Below are positions 3,379 to 37,065 of a DNA stretch of 41,987 nucleotides, in pieces (position 1 is the stretch's first letter; each line of letters starts with the position of its first letter). Both the position numbers and the translations under genes were made by a program. The notes beneath the pieces are model-generated. The model was given only the letters and a program-made list of their open reading frames with translations. It did not search any database and had not been told where the DNA came from. Source of the DNA: a virus; IMG/VR virus record IMGVR_UViG_3300027985_000907, positions 1 through 41,987 of that record, one strand, 5' to 3'.

Positions 3379-3483
3379 ATTATAACTGTGAATGTCACGA
3401 AACAAAACATATGGTCACAAAATCGAGAATTTGTTGTTGACATGTCATGAAGTGTGACGTATAATCAAGTCATAAAATGTGAC
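3379..3483. promoter_or_regulatory. Divergent lysis/lysogeny promoters and operators
   Basis: A full-consensus rightward promoter, TTGACA (3437-3442), 17-base spacer, TATAAT (3460-3465), drives the Cro-like gene. The spacer contains GTCATGAAGTGTGAC (3444-3458), and a near copy, GTCATAAAATGTGAC (3469-3483), follows the -10 box. Each has inverted GTCA / TGAC arms. Two more GTCAC half-sites lie at about 3394 and 3414 toward the repressor gene. A leftward -10 (TATAAT on the - strand, 3379-3384) without a clear -35 serves the repressor. The layout fits competitive binding of CI-like and Cro-like proteins. Confidence 0.8.
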
Positions 3484-3495
3484 GTTGGGGGAACC

Positions 3496-3720
3496 ATGGC
3501 AGCTCTTAATAGATTGAAAAAGATTCGAGAAGAACGTGGCTATACGCAACAGCATGTTGCTGATTATCTTAATGTATCTCGATCAACCTATACGCAATAT
3601 GAAACAGGTGTCAATAATATTGGATTTGACAAGATCGTTTTACTAAAACGACTATTTAACATAACAGACGACCTTATTTTTTTACCTGACAACGACACAA
3701 AACGTGACCTCCTAGCTTGA
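3496..3720 (+). CDS. Cro-like XRE-family regulator
   Basis: This 74-aa protein is almost entirely a helix-turn-helix domain (LKKIREERGYTQQHVADYL, NVSRSTYTQYETG). ATG 3496 is chosen over the upstream in-frame start because GGGGGA precedes it and because translation from 3454 would begin inside the promoter. It is the first gene of the rightward transcript and is expected to oppose the repressor at the shared operators. Confidence 0.85.
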   Translation: MAALNRLKKIREERGYTQQHVADYLNVSRSTYTQYETGVNNIGFDKIVLLKRLFNITDDLIFLPDNDTKRDLLA

Positions 3721-5572: not shown

Positions 5573-5645
5573 GCCGAACGTAGCTCAGCGGATAGAGCGC
5601 TGGCCATATCAGAGGTCGCAGGTTCGAATCCTGTCGTCGGCACCA
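5573..5645 (+). tRNA. Degenerate tRNA-type gene, apparent CAT anticodon
   Basis: The D arm (GCTC / GAGC), the T arm with TTCGAAT loop and an encoded CCA end are clear. The acceptor stem pairs GCCGA-CG with CGTCGGC only if one extra A is bulged. The anticodon arm is about 4 bases short: CTG-GCCATAT-CAG gives a 3-bp stem and a 7-base loop, reading CAT but lacking the usual U33. It is either a decaying tRNA or a tRNA-like RNA. Length with CCA is 73. Confidence 0.55.
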
Positions 5646-5733
5646 TGGGAACATTGGGAGATGAAGTAGGAATTAGGGCTGCGGGCCGTCGTGGTGGTGC
5701 GGCGGCCAAGACAGCCAGAAAGTGAGGTCAAGC

Positions 5734-6063
5734 ATGGGTAACAAAATAGGAATTTTACAAAAGATCAAGATTGCATTGTTTTGGTTCACAAGCCCCACAA
5801 GAAAGAATATTTTAACCGTTACTTGTGAATTTTGCGGCGGAACAAACATTATTAAAGAATCCAGCTTTGGCACCATCGATGCTGAAAATGATCAAAAGCT
5901 AATCAAGGAGTATTCCGCACGGTACGTATGTATGAATTGCAAGGCGACATGTCAGTGCTTACAGACATGGTCAACATACAAGAGAGAGCATATTAATGCG
6001 GTCGAGAAGATTATACAACAAATGGCTAAAAATCAACCCGAGGATGCCGATCATGTTTCCTGA
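5734..6063 (+). CDS. Small zinc-ribbon protein
   Basis: This 109-aa protein carries two cysteine pairs, CEFC and CMNC, about 40 residues apart, plus a further Cys in CKATCQC, consistent with a zinc-ribbon fold. The N-terminus is basic and hydrophobic (IGILQKIKIALFWF). GAGGTC precedes ATG 5734. It lies between the two tRNA-type genes. Nucleic acid binding is plausible but not shown. Confidence 0.65.
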   Translation: MGNKIGILQKIKIALFWFTSPTRKNILTVTCEFCGGTNIIKESSFGTIDAENDQKLIKEYSARYVCMNCKATCQCLQTWSTYKREHINAVEKIIQQMAKNQPEDADHVS

Positions 6064-6148
6064 TGTATGGGCTTATATATGCGGCGGTCTGCTGCTCGTG
6101 GCAGCCTTGATAATCGTATTCTGGCCGCAGAATCCACGGCTGAAATAA
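6053..6148 (+). CDS. 31-aa membrane peptide
   Basis: The frame overlaps the end of the zinc-ribbon gene. It encodes MFPDVWAYICGGLLLVAALI followed by IVFWPQNPRLK, so it is nearly all one membrane segment. It ends four bases before the second tRNA. GAGGATG lies upstream. It resembles the 42-aa peptide at 5140 in architecture. Support is limited to coupling and composition. Confidence 0.4.
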   Translation: MFPDVWAYICGGLLLVAALIIVFWPQNPRLK

Positions 6149-6152
6149 ACAT

Positions 6153-6229
6153 GGGGGAATACGCAAGAGGACAAGCGTAAGGGCTCATAACCCGAGCATG
6201 GCGCGGTTCGAGTCCGCGCTCCTCCACCA
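6153..6229 (+). tRNA. tRNA with CAT anticodon (Met or Ile2)
   Basis: The acceptor stem pairs GGGGGA with TCCTCC (one G-U). The D stem is CGC / GCG. The anticodon loop is CTCATAA, with U33 present and anticodon CAT. The T arm is CGCGG-TTCGAGT-CCGCG, followed by discriminator A and an encoded CCA. CAT could be elongator methionine or, if lysidine-modified, isoleucine ATA. Length is 77 with CCA. Such tRNAs are common in phages and may match their codon use. Confidence 0.85.
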
Positions 6230-6241
6230 AAAACCTTGAAA

Positions 6242-6489
6242 GATGGCGCGGGTGTACAACAGATTTGATTGCGCGTCAATGCATGCGGCCTTCGTGAGTT
6301 TCCGCATGTGAACGCGCATGATAGGAGCCATCGTTGTGATGAAATAGAGCGGCAAAGGATAAAACTCACGATCAGCCGACGGGCTGAGAATCCAAGGCCG
6401 CTCGATCATGGAGATACCTTCAGCATCGGCTTGCTTAGCGGCTCGGCCATGCCAAAGGGCGCGGGCGCATGAGCCCGCAATCTCCACCA
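6242..6489 (+). ncRNA. Candidate structured noncoding RNA with tRNA-like ACCA end
   Basis: Between the tRNA and the next gene lie nested complementary arms. Domain 1: GATGGC (6242) with GCCATC (6327), GCGCGT with ACGCGC, and CATGCGG (6282-6288) with CCGCATG (6302-6308). Domain 2: GAGCGGC (6347) with GCCGCTC (6397), GGAT with ATCC, and TCAGCC with GGCTGA. Domain 3: GGAGAT (6409-6414) with ATCTCC (6480-6485), enclosing GCAT-C-GGC with GCC-ATGC and a GCGGGC / GCCCGC hairpin, then ACCA. The apical loop of domain 1 (CGTGAGTTT, 6293-6301) is fully complementary to AAACTCACG (6362-6370) in domain 2. The T loop of a true tRNA is absent. Function unknown. Confidence 0.5.
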
Positions 6490-6508
6490 GTAAGACTACC
6501 CCTTTACA

Positions 6509-6543
6509 TTGTCGGCGGCGGTCAAGCGCCGCTGCCGGCACAA
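6509..6543 (+). promoter_or_regulatory. Strong hairpin just before a ribosome site
   Basis: GCGGCG-GTCAAG-CGCCGC, extended by outer TTGT / ACAA pairing, ends about 8 bases before GGAGG of the gene at 6561. It could mark the RNA processing end of the tRNA region or control translation. Confidence 0.5.
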
Positions 6544-6560
6544 TCTTTTTGGAGGTCATT

Positions 6561-6968
6561 ATGAAAGTTTTGCTTATTATCTCTCAGTATAGATGGTCTC
6601 GTCACATGTTCATAGTTGAGTCAAAAAGTGATGATCAGGAATATCTCAAAGTGTCACAGAAGCTTATCGAAGAGCTCGAGGACTATAAAAGGATATCCAT
6701 TAACAGGGGTGACTATAATTACGGTGATATGCAAGAGCCGTTCTTCGGTGGAATGAAGCGCCGACACAACGTGAACGACTCTGGTGACATTTACTTTATA
6801 CCCTGTATCTCAATAACGCATGCATTAAAAGAAATTAAAGAATATTGGGATACGTCAAGACGTGAATCTCGTGGATATAAAAAGCGCGAGCTGGAAAAAT
6901 CCGTCGACGATCATCACAATGTTGCAATTATCAGAGACATTGTATCACGACATTTTAATATTCTTTGA
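6561..6968 (+). CDS. Hypothetical phage protein
   Basis: This 135-aa protein starts at ATG 6561 after TTTTTGGAGGTC. It begins MKVLLIISQYRW and has a charged, mostly helical C-terminal half (HALKEIKEYWDTSRRESRGYKKRE). No family is recognised and no membrane segment is seen. It is the first gene after the structured RNA stretch and is followed by a GC-rich hairpin. Confidence 0.65.
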   Translation: MKVLLIISQYRWSRHMFIVESKSDDQEYLKVSQKLIEELEDYKRISINRGDYNYGDMQEPFFGGMKRRHNVNDSGDIYFIPCISITHALKEIKEYWDTSRRESRGYKKRELEKSVDDHHNVAIIRDIVSRHFNIL

Positions 6969-9578: not shown

Positions 9579-11327
9579 ATGGGTTATATTCATGAATTGG
9601 TTATCGACAATTTTGCAGGTGGCGGCGGCGCCAGCGAAGGAATTGAACAGGCTATCGGCCGCGCGGTGGATGTTGCGATAAATCACGATCCGATGGCTAT
9701 TGCCATGCACATGGTCAACCATCCGCAGACAAAGCATTACTGCGAGGACGTATTTTTGGTTGATCCGAGAGAAGTGGCGGCGGGACGGCCTGTCGGGTTG
9801 GTGTGGCTTTCACCTGATTGCAAGCATTTCAGCAAAGCCAAAGGCGGAAAGCCTGTCGAGAAGAAAATACGCGGGCTTGCGTGGGTTGGCGTACGCTGGG
9901 CAGCCACAGTAAAGCCTCGCGTGATTATGCTTGAAAACGTCGAAGAGTTCAAAACATGGGGCCCTTTACTTGAAAACGGTAAGCCGGATCCTAAGCAAAA
10001 AGGCCGCACATTTAATGCTTTTGTGAATGCGCTAAAAAGATATGGATACAAGGTTGAAACGCGCGAGCTTCGGGCATGTGATTATGGTGCGCCGACAACG
10101 CGCAAACGCCTGTTTTTAATCGCGCGGCGGGACGGTCGCCCTATTGTATGGCCTGAACCTACTCACGGCGATCCAAACAGCGAAGCGGTTAAAAAAGGAA
10201 AGCTTAAGCCATGGCGGACAGCGGCAGAGATAATCGATTGGTCTATTCCGTGTCCGTCAATATTCGAGCGTAAACGTCCACTGGCTGAAAACACCCTGCG
10301 GCGGATCGCGCGCGGCATTCAAAAATTTGTTATCAATAATCCTGAGCCTTTCATAGTACAGGTTAACCATAATGGTGATGGATTCAGAGGACAAGATGTA
10401 AAAGAACCATTACAAACCGTAACAGCTAAAAATGGATATGGTGTCGTCACTCCTTATATCACAAAGTTTCAGCAAAACAGTATTGGGCAGGTGCCCGGGA
10501 AACCTATTGATACCGTCATGGCTGGAGCGACGCGCTTTGGCTTGGTGACGCCGACAGTTATGGCTATAGGACAAACGGGCGGCGGAGATCGGACGGCGGC
10601 GGCAGACGAACCGCTGCGTACAGTTGTCTCAAAGGCGGAACATTGCCTGGTAGCGCCTACGCTGATTCAATATCATACCGAACAGGCAAAATGTGAACAT
10701 CGCGGTCAAAGTCTTGAAGAGTCCATCATGACCGTTGACGCCGCGCCAAGATATGGTCTTGTTGCCGCTTTTATAAGCAAATATTACGACGGTACATATA
10801 AAGGCGCAGGAAGCGCGGCGGATGATCCTCTGCATACCGTGACAGCTCATGATCATAACGCACTTGTTACATCTCACATCCTTAAAATGAAGGGTACGAA
10901 CATTGGGCAGCCTGATAAACAGCCGCTTCAAACAATCACTGCCGGCGGCTTACACTTCGGTGAAGTTCGCGCATTTCTTATGAAGTATTACGGCACTGGT
11001 GAAGGACAAGCTGCTTCTGATCCACTCGGTACTGTGACAACAAAAGACCGTTTTGGTCTTGTCACTATTCACGGTGAAGAATATATGATCTCCGATATAG
11101 GTATGCGCATGCTTGAACCGCGAGAGTTATTTAATGCACAGGGCTTTCCTTTGTCGTATGTGATTGATAAAGATATTGATGGAAACCAGATATCGAAAGC
11201 ATCTCAGGTGGCTCGTTGTGGCAATGCGGTACCGCCTCCTTTTGCGAAAGCGCTGGTTATGGCAAACCTTCCAGAACTATGTGTGGGCGGACAGGTGACA
11301 TTTGATCTGAGCGAGGGGCGACACTAA
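9579..11327 (+). CDS. DNA (cytosine-5) methyltransferase with repeat-type recognition region
   Basis: This 582-aa enzyme has C5-methylase motifs in order: I (DNFAGGGGASEGIEQA, residues about 10-25), IV with the catalytic Cys (LSPDCKHFS), VI (ENVEEF), VIII (TTRKRLFLIARR), IX (PRELFNAQGFP) and X (GNAVPPPFAKAL). Between VIII and IX (about residues 260-505) are seven imperfect repeats of about 35 residues built around PLxTVTAxxxxGLVTPxIxKY. This takes the place of the target recognition domain. It probably protects phage DNA from host restriction. It overlaps the next start by TAATG. Confidence 0.93.
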   Translation: MGYIHELVIDNFAGGGGASEGIEQAIGRAVDVAINHDPMAIAMHMVNHPQTKHYCEDVFLVDPREVAAGRPVGLVWLSPDCKHFSKAKGGKPVEKKIRGLAWVGVRWAATVKPRVIMLENVEEFKTWGPLLENGKPDPKQKGRTFNAFVNALKRYGYKVETRELRACDYGAPTTRKRLFLIARRDGRPIVWPEPTHGDPNSEAVKKGKLKPWRTAAEIIDWSIPCPSIFERKRPLAENTLRRIARGIQKFVINNPEPFIVQVNHNGDGFRGQDVKEPLQTVTAKNGYGVVTPYITKFQQNSIGQVPGKPIDTVMAGATRFGLVTPTVMAIGQTGGGDRTAAADEPLRTVVSKAEHCLVAPTLIQYHTEQAKCEHRGQSLEESIMTVDAAPRYGLVAAFISKYYDGTYKGAGSAADDPLHTVTAHDHNALVTSHILKMKGTNIGQPDKQPLQTITAGGLHFGEVRAFLMKYYGTGEGQAASDPLGTVTTKDRFGLVTIHGEEYMISDIGMRMLEPRELFNAQGFPLSYVIDKDIDGNQISKASQVARCGNAVPPPFAKALVMANLPELCVGGQVTFDLSEGRH

Positions 11328-12607
11328 TGTATATCAGCTATAAAGATTTAATCAAAGAACAGCAGAAAAACCTTGACTATAAGATTGATACTGCCGTCAA
11401 AGCTATTGCGTCAGGTTTTAGCGCATCTAAGCATAGCGCTGCGATAGCTTTTAGCGGGGGAAAAGACAGTACTGTGCTGTGGGATATTATACGGCGTTTC
11501 TTTCCTGAGGCGGCGGCCAAGGTATATATCATTTTTGGAAATACGGGCGTTGAGTACCCGGAAAGTTTAGTCTTTGCCCGTCAGATCGGACACAAATGGG
11601 GCGGCGGCAATTTTTATGAAGCGACACCTCTTAAGACTGAATGCGCAGGATTTAAATATGCTGCACAGCAAGAGATATTACAATATTACATCGACAATAG
11701 CCGTGTCAGCGACCTGCTGAAAGATGATGGCAAACTTAAGAGCACAGCCACACTGGAAGCCGCTTGCCCGGTACACCTGATGGACAAGTTTCAGCGTGAA
11801 CACCTTATCTGGCACGAAGGTCAGAGAAAGAATTACTGGTGGTGTGTCGATCAGTACGGATGGCCGCTTCTTGGCAAGGCTTTTTCAAAGCTTAAGGCGC
11901 ATCGTATCAATATCGACTGTTTTCTCAAGTTTTCAAAAAGCGAGAGTGAAGATCCGAAGCTGCACGCATACTATGACATTCTACGCGAAGTGAAGATATC
12001 ACAGGCCTGCTGTGACACACTCAAGAAAGAGCCAAGCGAGAAGCTTCAGGCAGAGCTTCACGTTGATGTGATATTTAAGGGGCTTATGGCCGCGGAATCA
12101 CGCTCACGCCAAACAAACTTTATATCCCGTGGATATCTGTTTGAATCATCAAGACCACATCTTGGCGGCGATTCATTTTATCATTGCAATCCATTATCAA
12201 TATGGACGGATGATGATATTTGGGAATACATCAATCGCTATCACGTTCCATATTCGCCCCTTTATGACATGGGGTGGACGGATGATGAAGGTGTATTCCA
12301 TAAGATTCAGCGCAACGGTTGTATGGGCTGCGGGACTGATCTTCTTTATCCTAACAACCACATGGCCATGCTGAGGCGTACGCATCCAAAGTGGTGGGAG
12401 CTGTTTATGCGTAAAGGGATGGCGGCGGAGCTCAATAAGCTGCGCATTGCAAAAAGCAACGGTCAGTTGTCACTTTTTGATCTTTTGGAAATAAACAGGC
12501 TGATCGATGAGCAGCCATGTATCTTTGACCGCATTGATAAGCTTGTGATGTTTGATAATACAGTAAACCCGGACGATATGCTTGAATACGATCCGGATGT
12601 AGCGTGA
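11327..12607 (+). CDS. PAPS-reductase-family (PP-loop) protein
   Basis: This 426-aa protein has a PP-loop SGGKDST at residues 43-49 (AFSGGKDSTVLWD), which binds ATP or an adenylylated substrate. It has FGNTGVEYPE in the position used by PAPS reductases and related sulfur-transfer enzymes, and CMGCG near residue 331. Family members reduce PAPS or transfer sulfur, and DndC in phosphorothioate DNA modification is related. Its start overlaps the methylase stop (TAATG), so it works with, or at least is made with, the modification genes. The substrate is not known. Confidence 0.85.
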   Translation: MYISYKDLIKEQQKNLDYKIDTAVKAIASGFSASKHSAAIAFSGGKDSTVLWDIIRRFFPEAAAKVYIIFGNTGVEYPESLVFARQIGHKWGGGNFYEATPLKTECAGFKYAAQQEILQYYIDNSRVSDLLKDDGKLKSTATLEAACPVHLMDKFQREHLIWHEGQRKNYWWCVDQYGWPLLGKAFSKLKAHRINIDCFLKFSKSESEDPKLHAYYDILREVKISQACCDTLKKEPSEKLQAELHVDVIFKGLMAAESRSRQTNFISRGYLFESSRPHLGGDSFYHCNPLSIWTDDDIWEYINRYHVPYSPLYDMGWTDDEGVFHKIQRNGCMGCGTDLLYPNNHMAMLRRTHPKWWELFMRKGMAAELNKLRIAKSNGQLSLFDLLEINRLIDEQPCIFDRIDKLVMFDNTVNPDDMLEYDPDVA

Positions 12608-37022: not shown

Positions 37023-37065
37023 TTACGTAAAAATGCTTGACATTACGTAAATTACGTAATATAAT
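37023..37065 (+). promoter_or_regulatory. hicAB promoter with three TTACGTAA operators
   Basis: TTGACA (37037-37042), a 17-base spacer and TATAAT (37060-37065) are full consensus. Three palindromic TTACGTAA boxes lie at 37023-37030, 37043-37050 and 37052-37059; two occupy the whole spacer, so binding by HicB should block polymerase. Confidence 0.85.

Follow-up and report, generated by a model that had tools for sequence, protein, structure and literature searches.

What kind of element occupies positions 6242 to 6489 of the window analysed here, a 41,987-nt stretch (IMG/VR record IMGVR_UViG_3300027985_000907) that is a prophage within a 2.97 Mb bacterial draft genome? The original prediction saw in this segment three helix domains, an exact pairing between two loops and an encoded ACCA end without a convincing gene, and suggested a phage tRNA-like RNA, a decoy or a processed regulatory RNA. 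We favour, at a probability of about 0.4, a transcript from a tRNA cluster that tRNA-processing enzymes would cleave, in which a tRNA-derived 3′ domain would be preceded by an orphan pseudoknotted RNA.

A structured segment in the early operon

The gene map of the prophage places an integrase near one end and a holin towards the other (Table 1), and the histidine kinase and response regulator genes past 38.7 kb are host-like. The exact promoter consensus TTGACA-17-TATAAT matches twice in the window, against 0.02 matches expected by chance. The first match points right into a Cro-like open reading frame starting at 3497, and the segment lies about 2.8 kb downstream of it on this strand, surrounded by small genes and tRNAs. 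The second perfect match is found at 37037–37065 (+), after the holin gene and near the prophage end. Elsewhere, 11327–12607 (+) encodes a phage protein with a PAPS reductase domain, adjoined by a DNA cytosine methylase gene.

Table 1. Positions of the features discussed, in window numbering.
Feature	Position	Strand	Description or source
Serine-type integrase	556–2052	−	prophage gene map
Early promoter	3437–3465	+	consensus TTGACA-17-TATAAT; likely PR of operon
tRNA1	5573–5645	+	tRNA searches; anticodon CAT, C at position 33, acceptor mismatches
tRNA2	6153–6229	+	ARAGORN; anticodon CAT, encoded CCA
D1	6242–6332	+	GATGGC/GCCATC closing helix, 7-bp and 9-bp helices, 13-nt hairpin loop; z −0.97
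5′ loop partner	6292–6301	+	TCGTGAGTTT, in D1 hairpin loop
D2	6333–6409	+	7-bp, 4-bp and 6-bp helices, asymmetric internal loop; z −4.72, 0/500 shuffles
3′ loop partner	6362–6371	+	AAACTCACGA, in D2 internal loop
D3	6410–6489	+	tRNA-derived, encoded ACCA; z −3.56
Intrinsic terminator	6510–6550	+	13-bp stem, then CAATCTTTTT
Next gene (135 aa)	6561–6968	+	Shine-Dalgarno GGAGG immediately after terminator T run
Terminase	20427		prophage gene map
Tape measure	28241		prophage gene map
Holin	36491		prophage gene map

The segment 6242–6489 is structured beyond chance. Its minimum free energy is −102.2 kcal/mol (z −3.2), none of 200 shuffles being as stable, and the three helix domains, D1 to D3, are borne out, with D1 alone folding no better than chance. 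In a coarse sliding fold scan, the best window of the region (6451, which takes in the end of D3 and the terminator) ranked second of 558. The minus strand is just as well folded (z −3.06), as helices should be, so that the strand cannot be chosen from energy alone.

This equal folding would also suit a protein-coding or DNA-level element, such as a small gene, an operator or a replication origin, as would the open frames of the region (67 aa at 6269–6472 and a 124-aa minus frame) and the inverted repeat made by two 10-mers. The frames, however, find no support: those at 6269–6472 (+), 6185–6559 (−), 6073–6369 (−) and 6408–6560 (+) matched nothing in Pfam or PHROGs, and tblastn of the first two in phages returned nothing better than E 3. 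The 10-mer has no other exact copy within the window, and the tRNA similarity of D3, described below, favours the plus strand. We consider such an element very improbable and the segment, as far as this can be tested, apparently noncoding, in agreement with the absence of a convincing gene noted originally.

Loop complementarity and the search for relatives

A 9-bp pairing had been proposed between the D1 hairpin loop and the D2 internal loop. The complementarity of 6293–6301 and 6362–6370 is indeed exact, but its length is 10 nt, each partner being longer by one base (Table 1). All 10 nt fall within the hairpin loop and the internal loop once helices shorter than 4 bp are taken out. Opening the loop costs about 1.5 kcal/mol, and the duplex formed by the 9-bp core contributes about −10.6. 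Among 1000 shuffles of the whole region, two reached 9 nt and none 10, and none of 3000 dinucleotide shuffles of D1–D2 (6242–6409) reached 9 nt between a hairpin loop and another loop, figures that are optimistic because the test was devised after the feature had been seen. Independently of any shuffle model, we compared 354 prophage windows, and 10 nt occurred only in the one containing this RNA, all others having 8 or fewer. These statistics show that the complementarity between the two loops is far beyond chance.

No known family had been recognised in the segment, and Rfam agrees: at gathering and permissive thresholds, on the whole window and on sub-regions, nothing was found over D1–D3. 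Searches for the RNA by blastn in phages, plasmids, the family and the phylum gave short chance matches only. One match to D1, in L006, was rejected as an RNA homologue, as it falls inside a UvrD-like helicase gene, and the 80 viral loci of helicase relatives that were searched held no copy of the RNA. The exact gapped kissing-loop pattern selected nine stretches in viral contigs, none of which fitted the model, and scans based on open frames in viral and genome contig collections returned no homologue. A covariance model, R1, recovered itself and three weak matches from 41, 381 and 381 partly overlapping genomes of the order and class, and no second copy within the prophage window; these large-genome searches combined strict filters with a single-sequence model and could therefore miss a distant relative. 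The three weak matches all lie inside protein genes and were discarded as homologues.

The 3′ domain and its neighbouring tRNA genes

The tRNA said to lie upstream of the segment in the same direction is tRNA2, and another, tRNA1, precedes it (Table 1). Both are unusual, and both carry the anticodon CAT. The closest host tRNA to tRNA1 is tRNA-Val(CAC); tRNA2 falls below the cut-off of the tRNA model and has the anticodon arm GGGCTCATAACCC, as is typical of initiator tRNA. A tRNA with an intron was also considered and found no support in the tRNA search. A further stable hairpin (5646–5733, +; z −2.6) stands after tRNA1 and before the next gene. Directly before tRNA2, an open reading frame at 6053–6148 (+) encodes a 31-aa peptide, MFPDVWAYICGGLLLVAALIIVFWPQNPRLK, with one hydrophobic stretch, resembling small phage membrane peptides.

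In D3, reading the sequence confirms the GGAGAT/ATCTCC helix (6410–6415 with 6480–6485) and the ACCA that follows directly (6486–6489), with the start of this last helix corrected to 6410. Where a T arm would be, a 6-bp stem capped by a GCATGA loop stacks next to the closing helix. We compared D3 with 36 host tRNAs, read from the loci that a tRNA search of the host genome returned. The best match was tRNA-Val(CAC), with a score of 54 that none of 5000 shuffles with the ends kept could reach; with the last five bases of D3 removed, one of 1500 shuffles reached the observed score. Random prophage stretches reached 54 in 2 of 5000 cases, presumably by overlapping real tRNA genes. Alignments of D3 to tRNA1 and tRNA2 point in the same direction, and the similarity of D1 and D2 to host tRNAs is not above the null.

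D3 retains about 12 bp of acceptor and T stem in its minimum free energy fold (a 6-bp acceptor and a 6-bp T-like stem), together with the ACCA end. One T-stem pair shows a compensatory change from T-A to G-C; in the acceptor, a G-U has become A-U and one pair is disrupted. In the T loop, CGCATGAG takes the place of TTCGAAT, and one long hairpin stands where a tRNA has its D and anticodon arms. The stems are not retained significantly better than other parts of the tRNA (Fisher 0.17). ARAGORN made no call on D3, and the Rfam tRNA model (RF00005) did not match it even at E 10, since the T loop and anticodon arm are lost. Judged by sequence, D3 is a remodelled or decayed tRNA, nearest to host tRNA-Val(CAC), a similarity that explains its ACCA end, which would otherwise be an isolated resemblance. 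D1–D2, without tRNA similarity, may be a separate unit.

Whether this tRNA was remodelled or simply decayed is the point on which the main rival turns. In a decaying tRNA cluster, D3 would be a broken tRNA gene and D1–D2 a chance-folded spacer, with nothing functional among them. The C33 and acceptor mismatches of tRNA1 and the low score of tRNA2 would fit such decay, as would the failure of Rfam and ARAGORN to see D3 and the lack of a homologue of the RNA in the collections searched. A decayed tRNA should, however, fold worse, and D3 folds better: its z of −3.56 is more extreme than that of all 36 host tRNAs examined (mean −1.87), which leans towards remodelling over plain decay. D2 has a z of −4.72, and chance would seldom produce a loop pairing of 10 nt. 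Decay alone does not readily account for how D2 and D3 fold or for the loop pairing, and we judge it somewhat unlikely.

Terminator, proposed processing and possible roles

The terminator begins 21 bases past 6489 and is the first strong terminator-like site in the operon. Between it and 8474, inside a recU-like gene, no promoter-like sites were found on the plus strand, so that the downstream replication genes seem to need read-through. The order of structured RNA, terminator and gene, with a Shine-Dalgarno sequence directly past the T run, is what a riboswitch or attenuator for the gene at 6561 would show. When the terminator hairpin was forbidden, though, no alternative pairing arose: the cost was 26 kcal/mol and D1–D3 were unchanged, and this lack of a competing pairing makes an attenuator unlikely. 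Rfam held no riboswitch or T-box match either. The only relative found of the 135-aa product (36% identity, in a genome of the same class, L136/L137) lies in one reading frame with an N-terminal cysteine-rich segment, and the RNA is absent beside it. Control of this gene by a riboswitch or attenuator is therefore highly improbable.

Read-through could also be achieved in cis, if nascent D1–D3 modified RNA polymerase so that it continued through 6510–6550 into the replication genes. The model for this is the put RNA of HK022, about 70 nt with two stem-loops, present in two related copies for the left and right operons (PMC9378689). As in HK022, a structured RNA would lie on an early phage transcript upstream of terminators; here it sits just before the operon's first strong terminator, no promoter-like site was found ahead of 8474 for the genes beyond, and the absence of a competing antiterminator hairpin would suit processive antitermination better than attenuation. 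The differences are that the segment has 248 nt and a single copy, with no second one for a left operon in this window, that the two-stem-loop architecture of put is not found, and that a tRNA-derived CCA end is unexpected in such an element. By analogy, put-like antitermination is allowed by the position without showing the features of put (PMC9378689), and we regard it as distinctly unlikely.

We return to the tRNA-cluster transcript. The segment 6242–6489 would be a noncoding part of the rightward early transcript of the prophage, within a small tRNA cluster, transcribed from the promoter at 3437–3465 to the terminator at 6510–6550. RNase P and 3′ enzymes mature tRNAs. Since such enzymes recognise tRNA-type minihelices that carry CCA, those of the host would cut the transcript behind tRNA2 (6229) and in front of D3 (6410). 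An excision of this kind is suggested by where the segment lies, with a tRNA on one side and a tRNA-derived CCA end on the other. D3 would then serve as a processing and stabilising end, and D1–D2 would either remain attached to it or come free, giving a compact RNA of about 180 nt with a pseudoknot. The likeliest role would be that of a decoy or regulator RNA, made by the phage in early infection and acting in trans; this is the weakest step, and both words are guesses. Of the phage tRNA-like or processed RNA first suggested, the structured and noncoding character, the setting in a phage tRNA cluster and the tRNA descent of D3 hold, and a tRNA-like nature of D1–D2 does not.

A more ambitious reading treats the whole segment, about 250 nt, as one pseudoknotted regulatory RNA of the phage that has taken in a remodelled tRNA as its 3′ domain. 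This would be a new RNA class derived from tRNA, which might act on the early transcription complex or decoy host factors that target tRNA. We find it unlikely. The segment is better regarded as a variant among phage tRNA-cluster RNAs than as a demonstrated new class. Like phage-encoded tRNAs (e.g. PMC10264068), which tRNA1 and tRNA2 exemplify, D3 lies in a phage operon, has an encoded CCA and is tRNA-derived by sequence. It differs in having neither a T loop nor a recognisable anticodon arm, in escaping tRNA models and in the 168-nt structured segment in front of it. Measured against tRNA itself (RF00005), D3 has the sequence homology, acceptor stem, T stem and CCA, and lacks a cloverleaf with a T loop. 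The tmRNAs (RF00023, RF04321) also combine a tRNA-like end with a longer structured RNA containing a pseudoknot, but the segment has no T loop, no match above the model cut-off and no tmRNA call by ARAGORN; the permuted-tmRNA model matched weakly (18.3 bits, cut-off 47), mostly over tRNA2, and the host genome has its own tmRNA. GOLLD and ROOL occur in the neighbourhood of tRNAs. They are reported, in PMC12286853, as large structured phage noncoding RNAs with loop-loop contacts; 6242–6489 is far shorter and matches no Rfam model.

Phage tRNA clusters are usually annotated with tRNA finders, and remodelled tRNAs such as D3, together with intervening RNA, are missed. If D1–D3 works, it would represent a route from tRNA to new phage RNA, and the gaps of tRNA clusters would deserve structure-aware searches. 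If there is only decay, the locus is a warning that a CCA end and a stable fold do not make a new class.

As a separate observation, stretches of 10–14 nt in the RNA are complementary to neighbouring genes (6278–6287 with 6817–6826, 6419–6428 with 5877–5886 and 6329–6342 with 6911–6924), perhaps slightly above expectation, and these could be antisense contacts.
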